Source: a virus
Length of the DNA: 23,770 nucleotides
Reading direction: 5' to 3' (one strand)
IMG/VR virus record: IMGVR_UViG_3300025127_000284
Coordinates: 1-23,770 of that record
Shown: in pieces, positions 1-22,579 of the stretch
Layout of the letters: each line of letters starts with the position of its first letter
Position numbering within the stretch: the stretch's first letter is position 1
Made by a program: the position numbers and the translations under genes
The notes under the pieces: generated by a model
The model's database searches: none
Seen by the model: only the letters and a program-made list of their open reading frames with translations
Told to the model about the DNA's origin: nothing

Positions 1-3000
1 TAGTTTTGCAATCATGTCCTGCTGCTCTGGGCTTGCAGTTTCCTCAGAGCGGCTGTCTGCTTCCATGTCTACGACACTGAATCTTCTTTCCGTTCCGGTG
101 CCATAGGGCTTCGTAGCCTCATCAACCGAGGCAGAAGATGCTCTAATCCCGTTTTCTTCGACGAGCGTTGCCCACTCCTGTCGCTTTTCTGGGGAGATGA
201 GTCTTGGGTCGTCATACCAAGCGACTCTGTCGCCTGCTTCGTTTTGGAGGGCTTTCGTTCCGTCATCGAATGTGTAATCCTCGTTTAAGATTCCTCCAGG
301 CTTATTGAGCCTGGTGCCGAATGAGTCAACTCTTGGCAATTCAGAGCTTGGCAAAAGCAATTTGCTTCTCTTGCCAGATATTTGCGCCCAAGTCTCCTCG
401 GTGAATTCGTATAAGTTGCCATCAAGCTCATACATGAGCCTGCTGTTTGTTGGGCCTCCGGTGTACTGTCTCATGGCAACCGGAACAAAAGTCATTCCGT
501 AGTTAGTTGCCCCGTATCTTGTTTCGGATGCACCCATCGACTGCGCTGAGTTATTGAAATCAACTTCTCCGCTGGTGCTGTTTCTCAAAATGTAGTTGAG
601 AGATCCGTGATTTGCAGATTGGCCACTGGCTGAGTTCCATGTATCCCAGTGGTACATCCCAACGGATACATTTTCTGCATCTAGACCTGCTTGTTCGTAT
701 TTTTGTCTTAGATTAGACGAGACATTACTTTCCAGAGCTTCATACAAAGCCAGCGATCTGTCTTCTTGGAATATATCTGAAAGCCCATTACCCTGGCCCT
801 TTTGACCATCGTAAACATTAATTCCATCGGTTCTGTCGCTACCGAACATGTTTGTGATTTGCACACGGTCCATCACAAGAACGTCGGTCCTGCCAGTAAC
901 AAGTGCAAGGAATGAAATGACCTTGTTTCCAATGCCAATTCCCTTTGGCATCTCTGCGTACATTCTTCTTCTAAGCTCTCTGCCACTGATGGAGGAGTCG
1001 GAGAAGATTTCATGGGCGTACTGGAGGTATGTGCCATCTGTCCCTGGCTTGAACTTTGACAGCTTTGGTAGCATGGTTTTGAATACTGCGTTTACATTGT
1101 CAGATACAGACTTTGCATTTGCAGGAATGTTTCTAACAGCCTTGCTTGCAAGACTTGCCCACTTTGCATCAGACCACTTTTCGGCAGTGCCATCTGCAAC
1201 AGCGTCAATTACCTCAAGCATGGCCTCGCTTGTAAACAAGTGCAGCGCGGCTGTTTCGTGGGGGTAAGGACTTGCCCTTCTGCTAAGAAGCCCCCAAATC
1301 AAAAGCTGACCAGTTCCAGAAGGAGTCACTTGGCCGCTGGAATAGGCTTTCCTAAACTCGCGACCTAATTGCATTCCTTCGTTTCTAGAGTCAATTTGAG
1401 ACTGGCTCAAGTTAGATAGAACTTTAACGTCTGAGTTTTCAATAAGTCCATAGGGGACAATTGGTGTCACAGGTCGCCTGTACAGATCCGCAAAGAATCT
1501 TTTTGCAGATGCTTCAGTGTCTAGGCCCGGATTTCTTTCCATCAAAACATCGATATTTTGAAGGAACTCAGCACGACCAGTCATTTCTACATTTGCTTTG
1601 ATGAAATTCGGTAGTCCACGAACCCCTGGCTTAAAGAACTGTTCTCCTAGTTCCTCTTGAAGCAACGGGTGCAAGTTTTTATGCGACGAGTCTTTTGCAT
1701 ACAGCGAGCTTTTGAAGCTCTTCTCGTACATTTTGGCAAGTCGCTTCTGAAAGTCCGCCCTAATATCTCTCGCTTGGCCGCGATATGTCATCATCAAATT
1801 GTGATCGATTGTTCTGGCATTCTCGATGCCGTTGTAAACAACATCCGCCAAAAGCGTAGAAATTTGACTCTTAAGGGGCCTGAGCATTTTGCCTTGCGGG
1901 TCAATGTCTGGTGCGCTCACCGCTTCATATTCGTCAACTCCAGTAATAACTTGGAGCATCTTGACCCCAAACTTTTCCATGGAATCAATGACATTTAGGG
2001 TTTCATGATCAAACCTTTTATACAGTGCATCCCACTGATTTTCATCAAGTCTTTCAAATATGCCTTCTCTAGGTGCGACACTGAATCTTCTGCCACTGTC
2101 CCTTGCCTTGTCAGACAAGTCATTGAACTTTCTAGAGGCTTTCTTTCTTGCAACGTAATCTCCAATTGCAGTCTCTCTGAGTCTTTCCGGTTGCGGCTTG
2201 TTGTTGATAGTAAACACCGGAGCAGTGCTGTTGTTCTCGTATCCAGAGAAACCATTGTCAGTTGCCTCAATGTCGCTGGCAATTTCTACCGCATATCCCA
2301 TCTCAGCAAGAGACTTGTAGACCTGGGCCTCGTCGTATGTGACCTGCGGCTGGCTTTCTACTGTGAGTCCAAGGTCCAGGGCGTAGTTTGCCGCTGTCTT
2401 GGTTGCGATCACAACAGTTCCGTCGCTGCCTTCAATGCCGTTGTCAATTCTCATCGACGCAGGGTTGCCGTTTCGCAACATCATTCTGCCAGACACGGAG
2501 CCTGTGTAAATCTGGCCGTCGAACACATCCAGGTTGATCGAAGGACCGGAGGCCCAGGAACCTGTTCTTGCCTGATCGGTGTTGACCTGGGTCGATATCG
2601 AATAGCGCCTGCCAGCCTTCTTGTCTCTTTTGGCCTTGGGTGTGGGCGACATGGACATGTCAGCCGCTCTTGTAACGCTTCCTTGAAGCTCTGAAATCAA
2701 CTGCTTGGTTGCTGCATCAGTGACTTCTTTGAACACTCTCAAGCGAAGAACTCTTTCGATTCTCTTGAGAGTGGAGAGAGATTCTGGCATACCGAACGTA
2801 TCCGTTGATCCTTCAAACCTTATTTCTTGGATTTGCCCCTTAAGCAACAATCCAGTAAGAGTTGTGTTTAGTTCTTCAGATGGTGGCTTGAATTGATTTA
2901 TTGGATAGTCGTTGAAACCCGTACCATTTTTTACGTCAAGGTCCTGCATCCGTTCGTTGAATTTTTCCAGTTCAAATACAGCAGAAGCAATTGGATCTTG

Positions 3001-6000
3001 ATTTTTCTTATCTATGGCGACTCTACCCCGTGCCATGCCAGCTATGTACTTAACTAGACTTAGGACTTCACTCACTCTCTCGTTTTGAAGCCTAACCAAG
3101 CGTTGATTTAGTTTTCTATTAGATCGGTTTTCTTCGCTTGTGTATTCGTATTCCATAAGCATCCTCTTGACTGCTTGGCCAAGAGGGCTGTCAGGATCTG
3201 TATTCTCGCTCAAGTCTGTAAGCGACTCCATATCGAAGTCGGCCTCAAATTTTTCTACAATTTTGTCAACCTGTTCCCTTGAGATAGTTCCAAGAGCTTC
3301 ATCAGCCCTGAGTTTCTTGCCCTGCCTGACCTTTCTCCTAACACCTGCTTCTGGGTCATCAGCAACCATCTCGTCAACTTCGCCAGAAGTGACCTGTGGG
3401 ATATCTTCGCCTTGTTCAACAATTGCGTCAGCAAGTGCTTCAGGTGACGTAGCTTCTCCAGCCTTGGTGTTAGCAACGCCTGCCTGCAAACCTCTAGGGT
3501 CACGCAGTGAGTCGAAAGCCTGGACAAAAATGGCGTTCAGCTCTTTGTATAGCTTTATCTGTTCCTCGCGACTAGGCTGATTCCAAGGCACCGCAGTTTT
3601 TCTGTCAGCTCTGTCGGCAGTGTTTCCGTCTTTGGCTGTGTACTTCTTCTTGCCATCCTTGGTCAACCCCATCTTTCTTGCTACGGTGATGAGGACCTTG
3701 AGGAGGGGACCGAACTTTCTGAGGTCAGGAGTGTTCTCAGTTGACCCAGTCTCTGCGTTTGATCGCATTGCATCCAGCAGCTCAGGCTCTGTCAGCGTTG
3801 CTGCAACAACTTCAGCAAGAAGTGCAGGGCCTTCGGACTCAATCATTTCCTCTGTCAAAGTTGCTGTCAAAGGGGAATCTGCAAATGCCTTTCTATAGGC
3901 AGAATCATATTCCAGCATCTTCTTCTGCAACAATGCTCTGTACTCAGGAATTCTGTAGAGTTCCATGGCCATCCTGCGGAAAGCCTCTGGGTCTCTAACT
4001 TCCAGGTCATGCACAGCTTCGTGCCAAAACACTTCGTACAAGGCTTGGTCTGTTTTTAGAGATGCGTGGATTCCAACAACGCCGGGCGCAATTTGATCGT
4101 AAAACCCTCTCTTGTTCTCAGCGACACCATCGTAAAACACGACGGTAATGCCGAGCTTGGCAGCAACCTTTGAAACTCGCCTTTGGCCGGGAGTAAGCTC
4201 TGTGACACCGTCGTCTACGAAGGTCCTCACCCTCGCAGCCAACCTTGGACCACCTCTCTCCTTGGCATCCGCAACCAATCCGTCTTTGATTGCCTTCCTT
4301 GCAGACTTAACCCTTGTCGCATTCTGCTTAGGAAACACTTCGGTTTCCTTTGGAACTGTAATTTCTTCAGCAGGAGCTGTGTCTGCTTCTGTCGTACCTT
4401 CAGGGGCAGCTTCAAACTTTGCCCTCTCGTATGCAGATTCAAACAAATCCCTGGATTCCCTGACGGATTGCTCGTCTGGGGGCGCAAATTCATCAACTGT
4501 TTCAGCAAGAGGCGAAACGGGGTTTCTGCGCTGTACACGCCGGGCATTCTTAGCGGAAATCAAGTCGTCATTTGCCCGACTAGCGGACTCGGCAATGATT
4601 ATGTCTGCTTTGGCCTTGCCGTGTTCTTCTTCTAGAATTTTACGAGTGAGGTCGTCAGTTTCTTGCTCTGACCTCGCGCCTTCCTCCAAATCGCGCTCAA
4701 CTCTTTCGTCAGACACTTCTCTTGTGGTCTCAGCGGCTTGTTCTTGAGCGAGCTGCTCTGTCTTGAGCCTGTCAAGCTCCGCTTGTTCTTGTGTCTGCTC
4801 TTTAGCTCTATCGGCCCTGCGACGCTGGCCGACCACTTGCTCTTTTGTTTCTGACTGTTGTTGCTCTGCTTCGGTCTTTGCTTTGGTAAGAGCTTCTCTG
4901 ACAGCCTTGACTTCAGGCAGGTTTGCTTCGCCGGTGAACGCGGTCTCTTGGCCCTTGCCCTGCCTTCGTTGCAGCTCGCTAATTCTTTGCATTCGCTCTT
5001 CGATAGGCAAGAAGTCTGGCAGCATCTCCGCCCTCTGCCTGACGGTTGTCACTCTCCTACCCATCACATCCAGGCCGCCGTCTGCATCTGCACTTAGCAG
5101 GTCAACGCCTGTCTCTTCGTTAAACTGAGCAATCGAGTTGTCAATAACCTCTCTTGAGGTTGCGTCCATTGCAATGCCAGCACCCTCGGGCGACACGGCT
5201 TCATCAATAGCCCTCGATCTGCGCGCACTCTCAATGTTTTGAGTTCTGTTTCTAATTGCATTGGCAAGACGGTTTCTGCCGTTCTTGCTAGAGGTGAACT
5301 TGCCAAGGCCGTGCTTTTCGGCAATTTTTTCAAGCGCGCTTCGAGAAACGTCCCCCTCAAGTGCGGCAATTTCTCTTGCTGCTTCAGGGTGAGCCGCAAT
5401 CAAAGTATCTACGGCGCTGTCCATATCCGCAGCGTCAAGCTCGGCAACCAGAGCCTCTGCAAGATATGTATCTGTTCTTTCAAAGATTGGACCACGGGTG
5501 ACTGTTTTCTGGGCCGCGCCAGGAACTTGGTCAGGCCTAGTAGCAGCATCACCCATCACAACATCCTGAACCATGTCTGCGTTGATTGTGCCTGCCGAAA
5601 CTCCTCTGTTCGAGAGTTCATAAAACGCCATCAAAGGGGAAACGGCAATTTCAGTGTCTCCCTCCCCGATAGTGACAAACTCGCGCAATCCAAGCCCAGA
5701 CTCAATAGCTTGGAACAGTTGGGCGATTGATAGTGCTTGGAATTCTGGCTGTCTCTCTGAAACCGTAGAGATAGCTTTCTGTCTTGTTGCTGCTGTTTTT
5801 TGTTCTTCGAGTTGTACAAATTGTTGTGCTGCATTTCTAATTTCAGCGGCGCTAAAGTCTTCGCGCGCATTGGGGTCTTGCTGTGCAGTTCTCGCGAGAG
5901 TGCCGAGTGGCGCGCCCAGGAAGAAACCAGCAGCAAACGCCCTGTATGTTTCGTAAAAAGCACCCTCTTTGAGAAACCCAATCTGCTCAAGCCTTGGGTC

Positions 6001-7272
6001 ATCATCATTCAGGTTTGCAACCATGCTCAATGCGGCTTTGGTTAGCTGAAGCTCGACCGCTTCCTGAGCGCCTTCTGCAAGACCACCAACGAGGAAGTTT
6101 GTCATCAACCTAGACGGCAAAGACGTAGATGCAATAGCTCTTGCGGCTGGTGACAAGAAGAAGAATGGGTTTTCAATCTGAACAGCAAGAGCTGTAGAAC
6201 CAGCAGCGGCAAATGACTCTTCTAGGATTCGGGGCAAAGCCACGCCGTAATCCATGCCCCTGTTGCCCACGAACTCTTCATAGCTTTCGTTGAATTGCCC
6301 AGCGAATGATCTAGTGGCAGCTACGCTGGTGAATACTCTTCGCCCAAGCCTGGCCTTGTTCTTTGCCTGCTCTCTGATAATCTCTGCGGCCATTTTCTTG
6401 ACCTTTTTCTTGCCAGCAGCAAACCCTAAGCGCCTAACAACGGGAACAGCAAGTGCTGTGAGCGAAGTTCCTGCTGTCGCTGGGGCGGCAATAACGGCCA
6501 GTGTTGCAATTCCAAAATCAGCAGCCAATGCTGGTGCCGATTGGAGAGCATCTACAATAATGCTGTCTGGCAAAGGACCAAGATCCTGGCCAGTCTCTGC
6601 ATCGTAATTAAGACCCTCCATGGCGATTCTGGTTTCTGCAATCTTTTCCTGTCCCCACTCAATCAGAGAGTCCGACATTGATCCTTTGCCGAACTGGTTC
6701 TGCATGATTCCGCCAGCAAAGGTTGACATTGCCCCATAGGTCTCCCCGATGGACAGCCTGCCAGCCTCCAAGGCTCTGAGGGCGGTATTCATACTCCAGT
6801 CGAAGCCCTCCTGAACCTGCATCCGGGCTTCTCGGTCCTCTTGCGCCCTCTTGCCGACGTAGTTCTCTGAGAACCCTGCCATCTTGCGGAACTGAGGGTC
6901 CAGCATAGAGCCTCTACGCGGCGTTCTGGCCATCATGCGCTGCTGGGTCTCTGCGATCTCTGCGTCGCTTAGAGGCCGTCTCTGGGGCTGCTGCTGGCCT
7001 GCTAGACGCTCCCTAAGCATTCCCCTAGTCACGAACTCCTGTGGAGCGTCCTCTTGGCCTTCAGGAAGGCCGCCTGGACGGCCAAAATCAACTCCTTCGA
7101 CAAAGCCACGCCTGTCGTCGTACTCTTGCTTCAAACGGTCGTATTCAGGGTCACGGAACATGACGGTGTCGTCAAACCTGTCGCTCTGTTGCATGGCAAG
7201 AGACATGGCCTGATCTCTCAGGTCTTTTCTTGCTACATCCTGTGCATCCTGACTGGGAATAGCCATATCCAT
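1..7272 (-). CDS. giant virion/polyvalent-type protein with zincin HExxH site (C-terminus outside window)
   Basis: This frame has no stop from 7395 down to base 1, so the protein has at least 2424 residues counted from the ATG at 7272 and continues past the window. Visible along it: a polar N-terminus with many Met, Arg and Gln; a hydrophobic stretch near residues 250-275; a Glu/Gln/Arg-rich coiled-coil-like segment near 785-900; a metallopeptidase-like site, HEAVH, at 1084-1088, with E1154 in 'LLAEVV' as a possible third zinc ligand; and three copies of RR[FY]S[VI] at 1555, 1728 and 2396. Size, low-complexity linkers, a peptidase domain and the position after another large Gln-rich protein fit the large polyvalent or internal virion proteins of podovirus-like phages, which enter the cell with the DNA. 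That role is inference. The start is unsettled: the ATG lacks a good Shine-Dalgarno (SD) sequence and lies 73 nt after the previous stop, while the frame is open upstream to 7395 with TTG (7359), ATT (7344) and CTG (7320) as alternatives. Confidence 0.85.
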   Translation of the reverse strand, partial: MDMAIPSQDAQDVARKDLRDQAMSLAMQQSDRFDDTVMFRDPEYDRLKQEYDDRRGFVEGVDFGRPGGLPEGQEDAPQEFVTRGMLRERLAGQQQPQRRPLSDAEIAETQQRMMARTPRRGSMLDPQFRKMAGFSENYVGKRAQEDREARMQVQEGFDWSMNTALRALEAGRLSIGETYGAMSTFAGGIMQNQFGKGSMSDSLIEWGQEKIAETRIAMEGLNYDAETGQDLGPLPDSIIVDALQSAPALAADFGIATLAVIAAPATAGTSLTALAVPVVRRLGFAAGKKKVKKMAAEIIREQAKNKARLGRRVFTSVAATRSFAGQFNESYEEFVGNRGMDYGVALPRILEESFAAAGSTALAVQIENPFFFLSPAARAIASTSLPSRLMTNFLVGGLAEGAQEAVELQLTKAALSMVANLNDDDPRLEQIGFLKEGAFYETYRAFAAGFFLGAPLGTLARTAQQDPNAREDFSAAEIRNAAQQFVQLEEQKTAATRQKAISTVSERQPEFQALSIAQLFQAIESGLGLREFVTIGEGDTEIAVSPLMAFYELSNRGVSAGTINADMVQDVVMGDAATRPDQVPGAAQKTVTRGPIFERTDTYLAEALVAELDAADMDSAVDTLIAAHPEAAREIAALEGDVSRSALEKIAEKHGLGKFTSSKNGRNRLANAIRNRTQNIESARRSRAIDEAVSPEGAGIAMDATSREVIDNSIAQFNEETGVDLLSADADGGLDVMGRRVTTVRQRAEMLPDFLPIEERMQRISELQRRQGKGQETAFTGEANLPEVKAVREALTKAKTEAEQQQSETKEQVVGQRRRADRAKEQTQEQAELDRLKTEQLAQEQAAETTREVSDERVERDLEEGARSEQETDDLTRKILEEEHGKAKADIIIAESASRANDDLISAKNARRVQRRNPVSPLAETVDEFAPPDEQSVRESRDLFESAYERAKFEAAPEGTTEADTAPAEEITVPKETEVFPKQNATRVKSARKAIKDGLVADAKERGGPRLAARVRTFVDDGVTELTPGQRRVSKVAAKLGITVVFYDGVAENKRGFYDQIAPGVVGIHASLKTDQALYEVFWHEAVHDLEVRDPEAFRRMAMELYRIPEYRALLQKKMLEYDSAYRKAFADSPLTATLTEEMIESEGPALLAEVVAATLTEPELLDAMRSNAETGSTENTPDLRKFGPLLKVLITVARKMGLTKDGKKKYTAKDGNTADRADRKTAVPWNQPSREEQIKLYKELNAIFVQAFDSLRDPRGLQAGVANTKAGEATSPEALADAIVEQGEDIPQVTSGEVDEMVADDPEAGVRRKVRQGKKLRADEALGTISREQVDKIVEKFEADFDMESLTDLSENTDPDSPLGQAVKRMLMEYEYTSEENRSNRKLNQRLVRLQNERVSEVLSLVKYIAGMARGRVAIDKKNQDPIASAVFELEKFNERMQDLDVKNGTGFNDYPINQFKPPSEELNTTLTGLLLKGQIQEIRFEGSTDTFGMPESLSTLKRIERVLRLRVFKEVTDAATKQLISELQGSVTRAADMSMSPTPKAKRDKKAGRRYSISTQVNTDQARTGSWASGPSINLDVFDGQIYTGSVSGRMMLRNGNPASMRIDNGIEGSDGTVVIATKTAANYALDLGLTVESQPQVTYDEAQVYKSLAEMGYAVEIASDIEATDNGFSGYENNSTAPVFTINNKPQPERLRETAIGDYVARKKASRKFNDLSDKARDSGRRFSVAPREGIFERLDENQWDALYKRFDHETLNVIDSMEKFGVKMLQVITGVDEYEAVSAPDIDPQGKMLRPLKSQISTLLADVVYNGIENARTIDHNLMMTYRGQARDIRADFQKRLAKMYEKSFKSSLYAKDSSHKNLHPLLQEELGEQFFKPGVRGLPNFIKANVEMTGRAEFLQNIDVLMERNPGLDTEASAKRFFADLYRRPVTPIVPYGLIENSDVKVLSNLSQSQIDSRNEGMQLGREFRKAYSSGQVTPSGTGQLLIWGLLSRRASPYPHETAALHLFTSEAMLEVIDAVADGTAEKWSDAKWASLASKAVRNIPANAKSVSDNVNAVFKTMLPKLSKFKPGTDGTYLQYAHEIFSDSSISGRELRRRMYAEMPKGIGIGNKVISFLALVTGRTDVLVMDRVQITNMFGSDRTDGINVYDGQKGQGNGLSDIFQEDRSLALYEALESNVSSNLRQKYEQAGLDAENVSVGMYHWDTWNSASGQSANHGSLNYILRNSTSGEVDFNNSAQSMGASETRYGATNYGMTFVPVAMRQYTGGPTNSRLMYELDGNLYEFTEETWAQISGKRSKLLLPSSELPRVDSFGTRLNKPGGILNEDYTFDDGTKALQNEAGDRVAWYDDPRLISPEKRQEWATLVEENGIRASSASVDEATKPYGTGTERRFSVVDMEADSRSEETASPEQQDMIAKL

Positions 7273-7345
7273 GAGTCCGTTATCGGTCTCTTGAAAGTGC
7301 TTGGAGAAGGCATCGTCCAGCTTGTTTTCTTCGTAGATACTAATT

Positions 7346-10300
7346 TTAGAAATCCCCAATATCTGCTTTGCTAAGGAATCCGAGTCGTCTAATCATATCG
7401 TTTGCAGCTTGCTTTAGTTCTTGCCTGTTAGCAAAGAACCCAGTAGGAACAGAAGCCATCAATCTCTTGGCTACGTTCACGGCAACTTCCGCGTACAGCT
7501 CTGAGTTTTCGTCTTCTCCCCTGTTCTGCTTGGTAAGTCTTTCAACTTCCCTCAAGAAAGGTTCTTCGCTAAGAGGTTCTTGAAGTCGCAATTGCCCGCC
7601 ATCGATTGCGTAGAAAGGCGCGTCAAATGCAACGCTAGTTATCTCGCTAGAAGACTGAACAGTTGGAAGACCATTAATTACATCCAACCGCACTGGCTCG
7701 AAGTATTGGTTTCTAATTGGCTCATTAAGAGTTACAAACTGCTGGCCGTTTGCCTGGTATCCCTTGCTGTAACTATTTTCAAGAGCAGAAACCATTCTGT
7801 CTTCTTGTGTTTGCCCAGTTACACCTTCAACAAACCCTCTGTTTCTGTCGTAATCAGATTTTGCTTGTTGAAGATTTCTTTGCGCAAGATCCTGCCCATA
7901 CCTGTTAATGAACGCCTGCCTGCTAGGCCTTACAACTTTCTCTGCGTTGGCAGGCAAAGTCAAGCCGCCTTGCGATTCACGCAATCTTGCCTGAGCATCT
8001 TGTTCCATGTTGTTATAGAACTCGAAAGCTGCCTGATCTTCAGGGCTTGATGCTGCGAATTCGCTGGCAACAGGAGCTTCGATTGACATTTCATCATCGT
8101 CAATGCCAAGTTGTTCAAGAATTTGTGCAACTCTCTTGTCAGAAATTCTCGCAGACATTGCCCAGCCGCCAAGTTCTTCTGGATCTGCAACAGGTTGATA
8201 GTCAGGCCTTGCCATGTCCTCTTCGCTAATGGTGCCTTTAGAAAGCATCATTTCCTTAACAAGTTGAGTGTAAAGGTTCTTATTCTGAGGACCCATTTCA
8301 GAAAGCTCTCTAGCTTCAATAATCCTGTCGTAAACCTCCCCAGCTTCTGCGAAGGCTTCGCGGCTAATCTCCATGCCTTCTTTTTGCATGTCAAAGTCAG
8401 CAATTCGGTCACCCGTCGCGTCCGACGCGACTCTGCCTCTGCCACCACGGCCAGGCTTGTATGGGTTGTTAATTTTCTGAGGGTTGTTCGGTGTTACATA
8501 AGGAACGTCAAGCTGCTCTGCAAGACTCTTTTGGTTCTCGTTTTGAACAACTGCAACTGGGGTGATAGATCCTGGGTGCATGGTTGCTGCGAATTGATAA
8601 CCTGACTCAGTGTTCATGATCATCTGGCCGTTTGGCCCAAGACTCATTTGATGCGGGAAGTCAGGCGCAATCTGCTGCAAATGATCAAGGTAAGGCTGGA
8701 ACTGCTCAGGAGGAATTGACCCCTGTGGCGGTTGCGGTTGCTGAGGTGCCTGCGGTTGCTGAGGTGCCTGCGGCTGACCGCTAGGAGCTTGCCCCCTACC
8801 AGCAAGTCTGTTGAACGTCGCCATACGTTCATCGTATTCTTGAGTTGCTTGTGCCTCGGCTTCTGCCGCCGTCATCCTTTGACCAAATTCTCCTGGGTCT
8901 TGGCCCATGAGCTGATCCATTCGACGGGTGATACCTTGCGCCCTTGCTTCGTTTTCTCTTTCAGTTTGCCTGTTGTCAATTTTCTGGCCAGCAAAAATCT
9001 TATCCTGCTTGCCACTCAAGCTCTTTGCTGCTTGCCCCATAGCGTCTCTGGCTTGATTGCGAGCGCTTTCAAACTGCTTCTCTCCAGCTCGTCCAGGCGG
9101 GAAATTTTCTCTGCTAATGTTCTGGAAAGCATCTCTTGCATCTGTGTACTGAGATACTTCTTTGCCAGTGTAATTACTTTGAGTAGCAGCTTCAGCCAAA
9201 CGATCCATAGAATCCATTGCTTGGGGGCTAGTTTCAAGAGCTTCCCCGTATGAACTTCCGGTCATCTGCGGTCTGTAGTTTAAATAGTATTCGCCAGGAT
9301 TGTTGGGGTTTTCACTAACACCCATTTCAAAGGTCTTGCCAGATCCTGAAGGATCGTTGATTACCAATGAGCCTTCATTGTTTTCGTTAAATACAATCTC
9401 ATCAGGTTGACCTTGTTGTTCAGCGGCAGCTCTGCCTTGTGTTCTGCGCTGGTACTCTTCATCTTCAGCGCTTCCTGCTGGCGGCCTGCCGGGTTCATCA
9501 GGTGGGGTAGCTGGATCAGAGACATTCCTAAGTTGTTGCAGTCTATTTTGATCCTGAAACTGAGTAGGAATTTGTTGCCTGGGTTCTCTTTCTCCAAGAG
9601 CGAGCTGCCTTTGGTACTCGCTTATTTCACCACGCATGTACGCTCTGTCAATTTCACCCCGGTCAAAAAACTCTTGGTTGCCTTTGCGAAAATCCTCCAT
9701 CCCTTCTTGGAATCGTTCAAAAGCATCTCCAGGTGGTGCTTCTCTTGTTGGCACATTGCTTTGCATTCCACCACGAACGTCTCCTTGCGGGAGACGTTGT
9801 TCTTGAGGTGCCGGTTGCCCCGCTGCCATTCTTTGTGCCATGAATTGATCATGTTCGTCGCGGTATGCTTGACTTTGCGCGGCTTGCTGTTCAGTAAGCG
9901 CTTGGTAATTAGCTTGCTTCTGAGCTTGCTGTCGCTGAAATGCTTCTTGATCGTATGAGTATGGAGTTAATGAACCTGGAGCAACATTGTAATTCTGGGG
10001 ATTGAATACACTTCTTTCCGCCATTGATCTATTGTCTGGAGTTTGGTCTGCGTATTTTCCAGACCCCAAACCTGAAATTACATTTCCGAATTGATCTACC
10101 GCTTGACCAGCAGCAGTCATGCCCCGGTTTATTGCACCCGGAACCTGTCCTGCAACCTGTCCTGCAACTGCGCCAGCAACATTTGCCCCCCTTGCCACAT
10201 CAGGAGCAATTTGTGTTGCAGCCTGGGTCATTTTGTTTGGCAAAGCAGAAACATTCGCAATACCTTGCAACCCTTGTTCGACAACAGGCTGCGCCATTCC

Positions 10301-18288: not shown

Positions 18289-18930
18289 TTAATACCTAAG
18301 ACATGTAATGGCGTTGCCCAACGAATCTACTTTCGCACTTCCGATGTTGTAGCTAAACGCTAACTGCTGGAAAATTCCAATCCCAGTAAAACCAGTGAAG
18401 CCGACATTGACATCACTTAGATCGCATTCTTCTGGACCTGCTGGTGCTGTTGTTGCCGCAGCAACCACATCCATTAGAATGAAGGGGTCCATCTTTGCAG
18501 TGTCACCCCCAGCGCCGCCGCCAGTCATGTGCGTGAACTCTACACCAGTTGCTGTTTTAATTACCGCTTGGGTCGAGGCAGCAGCGGTTGTACCACTAGA
18601 CACTGTTACGATTTGTGATGAGCCAAGGTAATAGAAGAACTTTCCGTCTTCGTTGTAGTTTGTCTGGCCGGGTTCACCAAAACCCATAACTCCGTAGACT
18701 TGCAATACTGCTGGATTGCTTCCACTACCATCACTACCGTCGAGTTTCAGCATGGGAATGACCATGCAACTTTGTGCGCCATTACAATCAACAAAAGCAA
18801 CTTTGTTGTCGGCAAGTTGTGTGTCAAGGGTTGCTTTGCTCACGAAAGAACCGGGATCTCCAAACAGGTCATCACCACCATTGGCAAGTCCGCTGTCAGA
18901 GAGGAAAGTGAAACCTGTGTTGAAAGCCAT
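18289..18930 (-). CDS. 213-aa hypothetical structural protein
   Basis: A Gly/Ala/Thr/Asp-rich protein with long beta-prone stretches ('SCMVIPMLKLDG', 'QIVTVSSGTTAAASTQAVI') and few charged clusters, typical of virion surface proteins. An N-terminal segment with 'LANGGDDLFGDPGSFV' may be flexible. Three cysteines are scattered. No signal peptide or enzyme motif is seen. The ATG overlaps the stop of the 43-aa basic mini-protein (TAATG), with AGGTAAG upstream as SD. Start and stop spacing couples it to the HNH-like gene. Function unknown. Confidence 0.8.
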   Translation of the reverse strand: MAFNTGFTFLSDSGLANGGDDLFGDPGSFVSKATLDTQLADNKVAFVDCNGAQSCMVIPMLKLDGSDGSGSNPAVLQVYGVMGFGEPGQTNYNEDGKFFYYLGSSQIVTVSSGTTAAASTQAVIKTATGVEFTHMTGGGAGGDTAKMDPFILMDVVAAATTAPAGPEECDLSDVNVGFTGFTGIGIFQQLAFSYNIGSAKVDSLGNAITCLRY

Positions 18931-19061
18931 TATTTCTTACCTGTCCTTTTGCCTGGTCCTCTTCGCGCACTAGTGCTGCGGAGAGTTGATTTCTTTCCCT
19001 TTGGGGGACTCTTTTTGCCGCCTTTACCCGGCCTACTAACACCGCCACCACCTTTAGGCAT
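18930..19061 (-). CDS. 43-aa Lys/Arg/Gly-rich mini-protein
   Basis: The ORF has a clear SD (AAGGTG about 6 nt before ATG), and its stop overlaps the next gene's ATG, which supports it as real. The product has 15 basic residues (10 Lys, 5 Arg), no acidic residue and many Gly/Ser/Pro, so it is disordered and strongly cationic. It probably binds nucleic acid or another polyanion. One of a set of basic mini-proteins in this stretch. Confidence 0.65.
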   Translation of the reverse strand: MPKGGGGVSRPGKGGKKSPPKGKKSTLRSTSARRGPGKRTGKK

Positions 19062-19093
19062 AACGCACCTTCTTTCTGTCGCGTAGACGCAAC

Positions 19094-19198
19094 TCACTTG
19101 CCTCTGGAAGGCTTCTTCTTCTTCATGAAATTGTTCATCTTCTTCTTCATAGGAGACTTCTTGCCCATCTTCTTCATCGTCTTCTTCTTACCGCGCAT
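19094..19198 (-). CDS. 34-aa Lys/Met-rich mini-protein
   Basis: The ORF begins 11 nt inside the end of the 179-aa gene and ends 32 nt before the next mini-gene. The product has 15 Lys, 2 Arg and 6 Met in 34 residues, and no acidic residue. Repeated 'MKK' units suggest it grew by internal duplication. Such peptides can condense DNA. The ORF is short and partly repetitive, so it is less certain than its neighbours, but nothing else explains this interval. Confidence 0.55.
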   Translation of the reverse strand: MRGKKKTMKKMGKKSPMKKKMNNFMKKKKPSRGK

Positions 19199-19727
19199 TT
19201 TTGTTCCTTTCTGAAACATACTTTTTGAACTGCTCTGTGCAGTTGTCGTAGTAACCCTTGCTATCGAGCATTTCGCTGGCTTTCTTTAGATCAGACGCTC
19301 TTTGCATAAACACCATTGCGTAAGGTTCTTCAATCAAATGTGGCCAATTTTGCAGCTCTTGGTCCGGCTGTCCTGATTCTACTCCCAGCCCTGGGACAAA
19401 TTCCATGGCAACAAGATCCATGTTCTTGTAACGCTTGTTCTCTATTTTGCAGACCCACCCTAGAGTGCCAAAATGCACCCTGTCTTTGATTACATGTATA
19501 TGCAATTTGCATGAATCGTCCCAAGTGTCCAAGTATCTGTTTATGTGACTTGGTCTGCCGAAAGTCACTTTTACTTGTTTTTTCTTCCAAGCCTTTTTGG
19601 CAAAAGGGCAGGCTGATAATCCATTAAAAAATTTACTTGGTTTGCTGAGTACATGATCTGTCCAGAGTAAAAGCTCTTTTTTGACCTTTCGCCTCCAGAA
19701 GATTTGTCTCAGCAACTGCAATCCCAT
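19188..19727 (-). CDS. 179-aa hypothetical protein with CPFA motif
   Basis: The N-terminal 25 residues are basic and hydrophobic ('LLRQIFWRRKVKKELLLW'). 'NGLSACPFAKKAW' near residue 38 recalls the Cys-Pro-Phe-Ala motif of DUF1415-type proteins, but the resemblance is short. An alpha/beta body follows, with 'KLHIHVIKDRVHFGTLGWVC' and 'YAMVFMQRASDLKKASEML'. No known active site is clear. It overlaps the upstream 90-aa basic protein's end by 19 nt. SD is weak. Unknown function; a host-interaction or metabolic role is possible. Confidence 0.75.
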   Translation of the reverse strand: MGLQLLRQIFWRRKVKKELLLWTDHVLSKPSKFFNGLSACPFAKKAWKKKQVKVTFGRPSHINRYLDTWDDSCKLHIHVIKDRVHFGTLGWVCKIENKRYKNMDLVAMEFVPGLGVESGQPDQELQNWPHLIEEPYAMVFMQRASDLKKASEMLDSKGYYDNCTEQFKKYVSERNKNAR

Positions 19728-19981
19728 TTTCTCAATGCCTTATTAATTCTGCTCTTTGGGTCTCTTGCTGTCTTTGCGCTAGTCAGCTTTGATTTCATCC
19801 CACACATTCTAGAGCAAAAAGATTTTCTTCGCCCAGCAGCCTTCTTGCTAGTTTTAGCTTTCTTGGCGCTGACTGGTGGCTTGAGAGTTCCTTTTTTGTA
19901 ACTGCGTCGGCCCTTGGCGTTCAACCCGCCACTTGGGCTTTTGCCTGCTTTACGCTGCCAAGCTGGTGTTTTCTTTGCCAT
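19709..19981 (-). CDS. 90-aa basic phage protein (DUF6321-like)
   Basis: A Lys/Arg/Ser-rich protein with the order 'TPAWQRKAGKSPSGGLNAKG', then 'LKPPVSAKKA', then 'RRKSFCSRMCGM', and ending 'DPKSRINKALRKWDC'. From memory this is the signature of a small protein family found in many phages (I believe DUF6321), of unknown function. I chose the ATG at 19981, just after the upstream stop, rather than an upstream start inside the previous gene, because the family begins near 'KKTPAW'. Upstream AGAAGAAG could act as SD. Possibly a nucleic-acid-binding virion or packaging-related protein. Confidence 0.85.
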   Translation of the reverse strand: MAKKTPAWQRKAGKSPSGGLNAKGRRSYKKGTLKPPVSAKKAKTSKKAAGRRKSFCSRMCGMKSKLTSAKTARDPKSRINKALRKWDCSC

Positions 19982-19982
19982 T

Positions 19983-20132
19983 TCACTTCTTCTTTGCTGT
20001 CTTTTTAGATCGCTTGAATGCCTTGTTCGTTGGCGCACCCTTTGTGCCCGGCTTTCTCATCTTTTCGCCAGAGCCAGCCTTAATTCTCTTTCTCTTTGCG
20101 TGAATGTTTGCGTACAAACCTCTTTTAGCCAT
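19983..20132 (-). CDS. 49-aa conserved-looking basic mini-protein
   Basis: The ORF overlaps the upstream Cys-containing gene by 8 nt and stops 1 nt before the DUF6321-like gene. The product opens MAKRGLYANIHAKRKRI and contains 'GSGEKMRKPG' and 'KGAPTNKAFKRS' before a Lys-rich end. I recall near-identical small proteins beside structural genes in other phages. Strongly basic; function unknown. The sequence is too ordered and familiar to be a chance ORF. Confidence 0.8.
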   Translation of the reverse strand: MAKRGLYANIHAKRKRIKAGSGEKMRKPGTKGAPTNKAFKRSKKTAKKK

Positions 20133-20289
20133 CTTGATCACCTGAACTTGGAGTGTAAAAAAGCATAAAACCCTGGCATTCAGGGCAAGAATAATTGGAG
20201 ACCATCAGCCACTCTTCAGTGTCGTGGCCGCAATCTTCAGCGTCATGGTCTCCTCCATGAATCATTTCTGCTCCGCAGTTACATTTCAT
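20125..20289 (-). CDS. 54-aa Cys-containing small protein
   Basis: The product has 'MKCNCGAEM' at the start, a Cys-His segment ('HDAEDCGHD'), and 'SCPECQGF' near residue 34. The CxC and CxxC pairs plus His suggest a small zinc-ribbon-like fold. I chose the ATG at 20289, preceded by GAGGA, over in-frame upstream ATGs inside the preceding gene. It overlaps that gene by 11 nt and the next by 8 nt. Possible role as an anti-host or regulatory peptide; unproven. Confidence 0.7.
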   Translation of the reverse strand: MKCNCGAEMIHGGDHDAEDCGHDTEEWLMVSNYSCPECQGFMLFYTPSSGDQDG

Positions 20290-20458
20290 CGTCATCGTCC
20301 TCTTCTTCATCGTCATGTGCGTCAATAATCATTAGCCTGTCCATGGCAATGTCAAATAACACGCCAGAGACCTGCCACTTATCAAGCTCAAATTCAGTCA
20401 TCCAGTAAGCAACATGCTTCTCGACTTCCATTTTCATCTTTTGGGCGGGGCTAATCAC
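20279..20458 (-). CDS. 59-aa protein with acidic tail
   Basis: The GTG at 20458 overlaps the metallophosphoesterase stop as GTGA and has an AAGGA SD 7-8 nt upstream, whereas the internal ATG at 20437 has none. The protein is helical ('EKHVAYWMTEFELDKWQVSG'), then ends in a run of Asp/Glu ('DDEEEDDDDEM'). An acidic tail of this kind could mimic DNA or bind basic partners, and five very basic proteins are encoded just downstream. Function unknown. Confidence 0.7.
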   Translation of the reverse strand: MISPAQKMKMEVEKHVAYWMTEFELDKWQVSGVLFDIAMDRLMIIDAHDDEEEDDDDEM

Positions 20459-21234
20459 TGTGGCATCCTTATCAATTCAGCATCCCAGCATTTGCCGTTC
20501 AGCCTAGATGGCCTGTCCCAGACGCATTCTACAACAATTATTGCCGCGCCCCACATGCTTGTATCTTTTCTCTTTGCGTAATTAGGCTTCAGGGGGCCAC
20601 ATGTGCCGACATTGGCATACCAGAAGGGCAGAGGCACTTTCTTTGTTCTCATCGACTGAGTGGGTTCTACGGGCCTGTGGGTGTGGCCTCTGACTGTGAG
20701 GCCAAATGGTATCCACCCTGCGCACTGCATCATTTGTAGGCCTTCTAGCTCATCGCTGGTCATAGAGCAGTCAAAGCCATGATAGAAAAGGCATTGCCCT
20801 ACTTTGTATATTCCCTTGCGAGACTTTTCGTATGGGACCCAGTGCCACTGTTCAAACTCATCTCCGAACTCTGGGTGATTACGCCAGTCAACCAGGCTTC
20901 TGAGAGACCTGGGTATTCTCCTGGGGTCTGTGGCAAGAATGTTGTCATCGTGGTTTCCAGTGCAAATCCATCTGTTGCAGCCATTTGGCAACACATCTCG
21001 TATCGATCTGAGCAGATTAGCCCCATGTTCGTATTCATCAGACAGCGTGTGGGTGTCTTCGTTCGGGTGAACGGATGCTGCGCTTGACTCAAAAACATCC
21101 CCAAGATGACCGAAGTGGGTCAAATCGGGGATGTTGGAAAGGGTGTCTAATATCCACCTGTGGGTTTCTGGAGGGGTAAACGGTGAGTGAGTGCAGGATA
21201 TTGCTGCAATCTTTGCTTTACGCCTTTCCGTCAT
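20455..21234 (-). CDS. calcineurin-like metallophosphoesterase
   Basis: The protein has the core motifs of the dimetal phosphoesterase fold: 'FGHLGDVFE' (GD), 'CTGNHDD' (GNHD), 'FYHG', and 'VRGHTHR' (GHTH), in the right order. The first motif, usually DxH, reads 'ISCTHSP', so the metal-binding Asp is replaced by Cys or Ser. It may hydrolyse a phosphodiester or phosphomonoester on nucleic acids or nucleotides, as phage members of this family do. I chose the ATG at 21234, preceded by GGAGGCGAG, over ATG 21249 and TTG 21252. Its stop overlaps the next start as GTGA. Classification is strong; substrate unknown. Confidence 0.9.
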   Translation of the reverse strand: MTERRKAKIAAISCTHSPFTPPETHRWILDTLSNIPDLTHFGHLGDVFESSAASVHPNEDTHTLSDEYEHGANLLRSIRDVLPNGCNRWICTGNHDDNILATDPRRIPRSLRSLVDWRNHPEFGDEFEQWHWVPYEKSRKGIYKVGQCLFYHGFDCSMTSDELEGLQMMQCAGWIPFGLTVRGHTHRPVEPTQSMRTKKVPLPFWYANVGTCGPLKPNYAKRKDTSMWGAAIIVVECVWDRPSRLNGKCWDAELIRMPQ

Positions 21235-21296
21235 CTCGCCTCCAGACATCAAGTGTTCCGAATTGTCATCGGCATTAGGCTCTATTCTGGTTTAAG

Positions 21297-21332
21297 TAAA
21301 ACGAAAAATTACGGACCACCGCCAATGGTTCC
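21297..21332 (-). terminator. possible intrinsic terminator after the membrane cassette
   Basis: On the minus strand GGA-A-CCA pairs with TGGTCC around a 7-nt loop, with one bulged A. This is followed after GTAA by TTTTTCGTTTT. The stem overlaps the end of the pilin-like gene. The stem is short, so efficiency is doubtful. A 74-nt gap to the next gene, unusual here, supports a transcript boundary. Confidence 0.35.
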
Positions 21333-21506
21333 ATCTGAGTTGGTGTCGAGAGCTTCTGAGAGCTGCTGAAACTTCTCAACCTGTCCGTCTCGGACAGTCT
21401 TGATTGCTCCAATCGAGCCAGCACCCATCACAGTACCGAGAATCATGTATTCTGCGGTTTGCATTCCATTTTCGTCTGCAAGAAAAGCCTTGATTCGATC
21501 AACCAC
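21309..21506 (-). CDS. Flp/type IVb prepilin-like protein
   Basis: A 65-aa protein with a short basic leader (VDRIKAFLADENG), then 'GMQTAEYMILG', an exact G-X4-E-Y prepilin cleavage motif, then a hydrophobic helix ('MILGTVMGAGSIGAI'), a polar helix and a Gly-rich tail. Leader, motif and helix match the layout of Flp/Fap pilins of Tad secretion systems. The start is GTG, with GGGGG about 8 nt upstream, and it overlaps the 46-aa TM gene by 8 nt. In a phage it might be a virion or envelope protein, a decoy for the host pilus system, or a membrane-active helper. It could also be a coincidental small TM protein, but the motif and leader argue against that. Confidence 0.75.
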   Translation of the reverse strand: MVDRIKAFLADENGMQTAEYMILGTVMGAGSIGAIKTVRDGQVEKFQQLSEALDTNSDGTIGGGP

Positions 21507-21639
21507 TGTACTTGCCCCCGGTGATCAGCTTGAGAAATGGCGTCTTGAAGACAATGCCAGCGCCAAAGCTGGCTCCAGCCAGAAGCAGCATGAACCAAAA
21601 TGTACCGAGGAAACTAGAGAAACTTGCGAGAGTAATCAT
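21499..21639 (-). CDS. 46-aa single-TM protein
   Basis: The ATG at 21639 overlaps the lipoprotein stop as ATGA and is preceded by GGAGAAGAAG, so this start is preferred over one at 21702. Residues about 8-32 form one transmembrane helix ('FWFMLLLAGASFGAGIVF'), followed by a short basic/Gly tail. Size and context fit a holin, antiholin or small envelope protein, but no family is recognised. Confidence 0.75.
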   Translation of the reverse strand: MITLASFSSFLGTFWFMLLLAGASFGAGIVFKTPFLKLITGGKYSG

Positions 21640-22007
21640 TTTTTCTTCTTCTCCAAAAGGATTTGTTTGACAATCTTGTACGTCCAAGCTGCCGAGATGC
21701 ACCCGGTGAACACCACCAGGGGGTAGAAAAGGTAATCATCGTACTTTGCCACCATATAGTTTAGGACCGTCAGTATCAAACCGCCAATTACTGGATACCA
21801 GCCTCTGGCACCCTTAGTAATCACGAGAAGAACCATGCCAGCAAGAAGACAAAGCCCTCCGACAACACTCAACACGCTGAGAGGCTCAGAAGCCGATATT
21901 TCCTTGATTGCTGACACGGCAGTATCTTTGCCGGTCGGTGCAAGTGTGATGGATCGGCACCCAGATGCCATGAGGAAGGCCAGGCTTGTTGTGGCAGCTT
22001 TGATCAT
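21636..22007 (-). CDS. 123-aa lipoprotein with three TM segments
   Basis: The N-terminus is a short signal peptide ending in a lipobox (LMASGC), so Cys17 would be lipid-modified. The mature part has three likely membrane helices: about 45-63, 70-87 and 92-113. A Lys-rich cytoplasmic tail (LLEKKKK) follows. Lipidation together with multiple TM helices is unusual and fits a holin- or envelope-associated role. The gene overlaps both neighbours by 4 nt (ATGA), so it belongs to a tightly coupled membrane cassette. Confidence 0.8.
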   Translation of the reverse strand: MIKAATTSLAFLMASGCRSITLAPTGKDTAVSAIKEISASEPLSVLSVVGGLCLLAGMVLLVITKGARGWYPVIGGLILTVLNYMVAKYDDYLFYPLVVFTGCISAAWTYKIVKQILLEKKKK

Positions 22008-22213
22008 ATGTCGTTTATGCTTTTTCGTATGGTGAATGCCTTGTCAAAGTGCTTTGACAGAGTGGCTTTATTGTCTTTGATTCTGTGATCGTGGGCTTCT
22101 AGCTTTTTCTCTATGCCAGCCAGCCTGCTGTTTACCTTCCAGAGAAACGCAAACACGCCAAGAACTGCCGGTCCAGCAATTCCAACCGCGATCGATGTGA
22201 GATGTTCTTCCAT
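22004..22213 (-). CDS. 69-aa TM plus coiled-coil protein
   Basis: One membrane helix at about residues 6-27 ('AVGIAGPAVLGVFAFLW') is followed by a charged coiled coil ('RLAGIEKKLEAHDHRIKDNK'). The layout resembles XhlA-like or spanin-like lysis accessory proteins. AGG lies upstream of the ATG, and the stop overlaps the next start as ATGA. It shares its architecture with the 88-aa protein encoded just upstream; the two could be partners or distant duplicates. Confidence 0.75.
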   Translation of the reverse strand: MEEHLTSIAVGIAGPAVLGVFAFLWKVNSRLAGIEKKLEAHDHRIKDNKATLSKHFDKAFTIRKSINDI

Positions 22214-22218
22214 GTTGC

Positions 22219-22485
22219 CTACTGCCCCTGTAATTCCAGTCGCTCTAGTCGAGTTTTTAGATCCGCGATGTTCTCGTTGTGCTTGGAATCATTGGCCTCA
22301 GACAGCACCTGTGACTTGACTAAGTCCTGGGATATTTGACTCAGTTGCGATATCTGCATTCCATGGAACGTGATTTCTTGATCACGCCTTCCCATTGACA
22401 GAAACACGCCTGCTGCGGCTGCTGCAATCACAATTGTTTGGACTGCCGCCCACATCCCCGCTGTACCACTCTTGCCATGATCCAT
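22219..22485 (-). CDS. 88-aa TM plus coiled-coil protein
   Basis: One membrane helix at about residues 11-32 ('TIVIAAAAAGVFLSMG') is followed by a Gln/Ser-rich helix and a heptad-patterned C-terminus ('NIADLKTRLERLELQ'). It is probably a membrane-anchored coiled-coil protein for lysis or envelope interaction. I chose the ATG at 22485. The frame extends to an ATG at 22578, but that would read through the inverted-repeat region and has no SD. The chosen start also has only a weak SD (GAGTGG). First gene of the membrane cassette. Confidence 0.7.
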   Translation of the reverse strand: MDHGKSGTAGMWAAVQTIVIAAAAAGVFLSMGRRDQEITFHGMQISQLSQISQDLVKSQVLSEANDSKHNENIADLKTRLERLELQGQ

Positions 22486-22554
22486 TGATTTTTCGCCACT
22501 CTGTTTGGTTACGGTTTCAGTGAAGACGCACCGACCCCTAGCACTATGCTCCTT

Positions 22555-22569
22555 ATCGGAAAAACCGAT
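22555..22569. other. 5-bp stem-loop ATCGG/CCGAT with A5/T5 loop
   Basis: ATCGG-AAAAA-CCGAT on the plus strand; the minus strand has a T5 loop. It overlaps GATGGG (22567-22572), which can instead pair with CCCATC at 22581-22586, so the two stems exclude each other. Confidence 0.55.
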
Positions 22570-22579
22570 GGGGAACATT

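Follow-up and report, generated by a model that had tools for sequence, protein, structure and literature searches.

Why would a phage carry the subunit of a bacterial pilus? The question is raised by the window, by which we mean the whole stretch of 23,770 nucleotides analysed here (IMG/VR record IMGVR_UViG_3300025127_000284), where an earlier note had read a short open reading frame on the minus strand as a Flp-type prepilin gene. This gene, the predicted segments of its product and the neighbouring genes are as follows.

21309..21506, minus strand: Tad/Flp-like prepilin gene, 65 aa, GTG start (open reading frame, 12-row viral alignment, host homology, selection)
21465..21506, minus strand: leader peptide, residues 1–14 (MVDRIKAFLADENG), with the predicted prepilin-peptidase cut after G14 (G14, E19 and Y20 invariant)
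21369..21464, minus strand: mature N-terminal core, residues 15–46, expected to pack in the filament (phage pilins and host pilin 2 average 82% identity; helix 12–39 in a low-confidence model)
21312..21368, minus strand: distal end, residues 47–65, diverged from the host pilin and probably exposed (identities over residues 47–53)
21499..21639, minus strand: 46-aa membrane-protein gene, immediately upstream and overlapping the pilin start (hydropathy)
21636..22007, minus strand: 123-aa membrane protein with a lipobox-like N-terminus (LMASGC), cassette neighbour (open reading frame, hydropathy)
22004..22213, minus strand: 69-aa membrane and coiled-coil protein of the neighbouring cassette, with a weak resemblance to XhlA (Pfam E = 0.032, under the cut-off; hydropathy)
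20455..21252, minus strand: metallophosphoesterase gene downstream of the pilin, chassis marker by which sister phages were located (phrog_221, E = 7.6e-9)

The open reading frame at 21309–21506 is a real gene. Its GTG start overlaps the stop codon of the upstream small membrane-protein gene (GTGGTTGA), and the 65-codon translation consists of MVDRIKAFLADENG followed by MQTAEYMILGTVMGAGSIGAIKTVRDGQVEKFQQLSEALDTNSDGTIGGGP, with the predicted cut between the two. The same 46-aa membrane-protein neighbour lies beside the pilin in L017, L018, L026, L020, L120 and L121. The G-X4-E-Y processing motif that was initially reported is exact (G14-M15-Q-T-A-E19-Y20, i.e. G-MQTA-E-Y) and invariant in all aligned viral homologues. 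The leader ends in DENG, as had been described, but is not basic overall, with two basic and three acidic residues. The hydrophobic helix that was expected to follow the motif corresponds to a moderately hydrophobic stretch that falls short of classical Flp hydrophobicity, with a best 19-residue Kyte-Doolittle mean of 1.27 versus 2.76 for a classical Flp pilin; pilin 2 of the host Tad locus (see below) also scores 1.27. A structure model contains a helix at residues 12–39 (mean pLDDT 67.8); both structure models are of low confidence. An EF-hand reading of the segment DTNSDGTIGG (Pfam E = 0.14) was rejected, since the residues that would bind the ligand differ from phage to phage.

Taken alone, the motif is weak evidence, because 0.235 open reading frames with such a motif and a hydrophobic stretch are expected per window of the same composition. 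Judged from the alignments, it is conservation, rather than the motif alone, that lifts the pilin reading frame above chance. Two IMG/VR scans located the gene in 20 viral contigs besides the window, and a third located a variant pilin type in five further contigs. G14, E19 and Y20 are unchanged in the 12 viral sequences that were first aligned, as well as in 21 phage and host pilins, and the mature-side identity among the phage pilins checked is 73 to 98%. Between unrelated phages, the protein differs little although synonymous sites have reached saturation (pS 0.84 and pN 0.057 for the window compared to the pilin gene of the 82-kb phage G005), which argues for strong purifying selection on the pilin protein.

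No significant match to the window pilin was found in searches of Pfam (PF04964 included), NCBIfam, PHROGs or PDB sequences. The best match, below the cut-off at E = 0.002, is to DUF4244 (PF14029), a Flp-like pilin family of actinobacterial Tad loci. The identification was therefore made through host loci and profile comparison. A scan of a species-representative genome collection returned only two loci, on the Phycisphaerales/Planctomycetes MAG contigs L029 and L030, each with two tandem pilin homologues just downstream of a Tad locus. The products of the L030 Tad locus match Pfam models for RcpC/CpaB, secretin, T2SSE (CpaF), two T2SSF (TadB and TadC) and TPR proteins, and in G001, G002 and G053 the pilins share their contig and strand with genes for a TadV-type prepilin peptidase (PF01478) and RcpC. 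The Tad systems that the earlier note had proposed to look for are present in the matching hosts, together with a TadV-type peptidase. The two tandem host pilins (L029 7561–8168; L030 7530–8168) are clearly different from each other, and the phage pilins resemble the second more than the first.

The window pilin is 73% identical to pilin 2 of L029, and profile comparison links its family to canonical Flp pilins, by way of host pilins that grade into them, with a probability of 97.4%. One of these wider host relatives matches PF04964 at E = 6.9e-6, which is itself below the curated cut-off. The PF04964 match anticipated for the window protein was not obtained; this does not weigh against the identification, because the hosts' own Tad-locus pilins miss PF04964 equally, and the model is not sensitive to this branch of pilins. 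Absence of a profile match combined with loss of the motif had been named as evidence against a pilin; there is no PF04964 match, yet the motif is invariant. The proposal of a Flp-type prepilin in a phage is supported: homology places the window protein among the Tad/Flp-like pilins, although its score does not place it in PF04964. It shares with canonical Flp/Fap pilins (PF04964) and DUF4244 (PF14029) the short prepilin form, the DExG leader end, the G-X4-E-Y site and, as predicted, a helix after it, and differs from the canonical pilins in the missing PF04964 match, the DUF4244 score below the cut-off and the less hydrophobic helix. With the host Tad-locus Flp-like pilins (L029, L030 and G053) it has in common its length, leader, G-X4-E-Y site and core sequence; unlike them, it is encoded alone, without the Tad machinery, which the host would supply, and its distal end differs.

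This difference between core and distal end is visible throughout the set. Over residues 15–46, the phage pilins share a mean identity of 82% with host pilin 2. Over residues 47–53, the phage-host identity is 40%, compared with 61% between phages and 100% between the two host copies, and the distal end is unlike the host pilin in all phages compared. With two host pilin 2 copies as its reference, the pattern is suggestive of an assembly-capable pilin that shows a different end.

The same gene, which the earlier note had proposed to look for in related phages, does occur in other phages, and the carriers are unrelated tailed phages, as gauged by shared-protein counts, in which the motif is kept. 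Some are T7-like podoviruses that encode a terminase, a head-tail adaptor and a major head protein (one of them, G005, additionally a single-subunit-type RNA polymerase). Another carrier, a T4-like myovirus of 118 kb, encodes a tail sheath, a baseplate wedge and a phage DNA polymerase. The window's own lineage is marked by RecT, exonuclease and helicase genes. All of these phages are metagenome contigs and the nearest cellular relatives of the pilin are from MAGs, phages and hosts alike being uncultured. From this origin one could suspect misassembled viral contigs, contaminating host DNA or a captured gene that is neutral, but any of these is very improbable given the terminase, capsid, tail-sheath and phage polymerase genes on the pilin-bearing contigs, the lack of any accompanying Tad gene, the saturated synonymous change in a conserved protein and the recurrence in some 20 contigs.

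In the podoviruses, the pilin gene sits as a precise insert with a membrane/coiled-coil gene on one side and a short basic gene on the other. It is present in L109, L115 and L116 and absent in L112, L113, L114 and L117, and the gene downstream of the site is identical at the DNA level between L109, which has the pilin, and L112, which lacks it. The chassis sisters of the window, L089–L091, whose phosphoesterases are 90–93% identical, are also without the pilin. At its place they encode a 47-aa membrane protein (MEPSTLIQFAETTAAPLVAWVLVYYTLVRSLRKDMERVC...; L089 2743–2997, L090 3728–3982, L091 3724–3989), which might be a functional alternative. No homologue of CpaB, CpaC, CpaF, TadB, TadC or TadD was found on the phage contigs. 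From these sequence comparisons, the phage pilin is a dispensable, mobile and exchangeable single-gene cargo that is matched to the host. INPHARED contains no convincing relative of the window pilin or of a canonical Flp pilin, and non-exhaustive pattern scans of IMG/VR gave neither canonical Flp pilins nor pilins from the sister genera that were sampled; in these collections, carriage looks specific to one host genus.

The match to the host extends to pilin type. The window pilin, close to pilin 2 of L029, shares 49% identity with the pilin of G053, a host genome that groups with L029 and L030 in one genus set. A different pilin is found in the chassis sisters L092–L094 (phosphoesterase 86% identical), as well as in L120 and L121; this L092-type pilin is 61% identical to the G053 pilin and 44% to the L030 pilin, so that within the window's chassis the pilin can give way to one matching another host species. 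With hosts assigned by pilin match, the phage pilin type appears to track the host type within one genus of uncultured marine Phycisphaerales (Planctomycetota). In a 4.3-kb alignment of two podovirus-chassis phages, identity is 0.91 in one flank and 0.95–1.00 in the other, but 0.65–0.67 over the coiled-coil gene and the pilin core, and the divergent pilin matches the G005 pilin at 94% identity. The pattern resembles a recombinational replacement of alleles within conserved flanks. The membrane/coiled-coil gene beside the podovirus pilin has diverged as much as the pilin itself, with conserved flanks (L109 2314–2493, L011 928–1188, L021 7063–7242), and the two genes may be exchanged together. 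Because the tree of the ~62-residue pilins is unresolved, we do not claim a number of captures from hosts.

What the phage gains is best explained, in our estimate with a probability of roughly 0.55, by an action on the host pilus, in which the phage pilin would be processed by the host TadV and would enter and alter or jam the Tad pilus, limiting superinfection or loss of progeny. After infection, the phage pilin would insert into the inner membrane, be cut by TadV after G14 and pass into the host Tad machine, alongside the host pilin or replacing it. Because the packing core is kept and the exposed end is different, the pilus would then be changed or jammed. The likely benefit would be that rival phages using the Tad pilus are kept out, that the phage's own progeny are not wasted on infected cells and debris, or both. 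The pilin gene is frequently located near lysis-like membrane genes, and this neighbourhood hints at late expression. Late expression would fit early exclusion poorly and would rather favour a role in sparing the progeny from infected cells and debris.

Both kinds of benefit have precedents in Pseudomonas phages: their proteins Tip, Aqs1 and Zip exclude superinfecting phages by disabling type IV pili, and the shorter pili produced by Zip keep progeny from being wasted (PMC11656802). These are likewise small phage proteins, and the proposed action of the phage pilin would likewise be on the host pilus; they act as soluble inhibitors on the T4aP motor PilB or on PilZ, whereas the phage pilin is a copy of the Tad subunit. 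A change that extends the C-terminus of Caulobacter PilA, obtained in a screen for resistance to the pilus-dependent phage phiCb5, leads to short, apparently non-retracting pili (PMC13170226). Among open-licence PMC papers, we found no earlier description of a phage that carries a pilus subunit.

Phages convert or mask receptors in several ways, such as O-antigen conversion via sugar-modifying enzymes and the blocking lipoprotein Llp of phage T5. As in these systems, the infecting phage would change or mask a surface structure to which phages bind; in contrast to them, the phage pilin would supply the receptor's own structural subunit. A more specific version of this idea, which we regard as tentative, is that same-genus phages share swappable pilin alleles with which the host Tad pilus is re-surfaced, such that rivals no longer recognise it. 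This would be the protein-subunit counterpart of O-antigen conversion, common to unrelated phages and tracking the host pilin type. The presence of a host-matched pilin in T7-like, T4-like and other phages, exchanged or dropped as one piece, suggests a phage battleground at the Tad pilus of these uncultured marine planctomycetes. The phage pilin can also serve as a sequence marker that connects such phages with their hosts, and opens a direct test of its entry into, and change of, the Tad pilus.

The phage pilin might instead support or change piliation rather than block it, by keeping infected cells piliated or making them more or less sticky, so that infected cells stay attached or aggregated and lysis occurs among susceptible neighbours. 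The protein indeed looks assembly-competent, with its invariant processing site and conserved core, and the host has a full Tad machine; we nevertheless consider this unlikely, as the distal end is unlike the host pilin in all phages and the frequent placement near lysis-like genes would leave little time if expression is late.

Roles in lysis or in the virion are less probable still. The window pilin lies among small membrane-protein genes and the podovirus pilin adjoins membrane/coiled-coil genes, as would befit a holin-, antiholin- or pinholin-like membrane protein built on a pilin. Such a protein would have no need to match the host pilin type, and sister phages lack the pilin alone while the rest of the cassette is kept; in G011 and G012, moreover, it has other neighbours. 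Flp pili bundle side by side, so that a pilin on the particle could bind pili, as a decoration that sticks to or aligns particles along them, or could act as an adhesin; in some phages the gene does lie in or near structural gene regions. The T7-like and T4-like carriers, however, have unrelated virions, the gene is absent from close sister phages, and a TadV processing site would be needless in such a component. The precise single-gene presence or absence between sister phages disfavours a required part of either lysis or the virion and leaves decoy, exclusion and pilus-altering roles as candidates.

Several other features of the region were observed. Four small membrane proteins (46, 123, 69 and 119 aa) are encoded at 21499–22578 on the minus strand; the group has a lysis-like look and one member is weakly XhlA-like, with no confident family found for the members of this cassette. 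The minus strand at 1–7359 carries a 2453-aa open reading frame that runs off the window end and is apparently a giant multi-domain phage protein, and very large open reading frames also adjoin the pilin region in G003 (L017) and G005 (L019). A run of short, very Lys/Arg-rich open reading frames occupies 18930–20141 on the minus strand, and similar short basic frames occur between structural genes in the podoviruses (e.g. L109 2680–2775).
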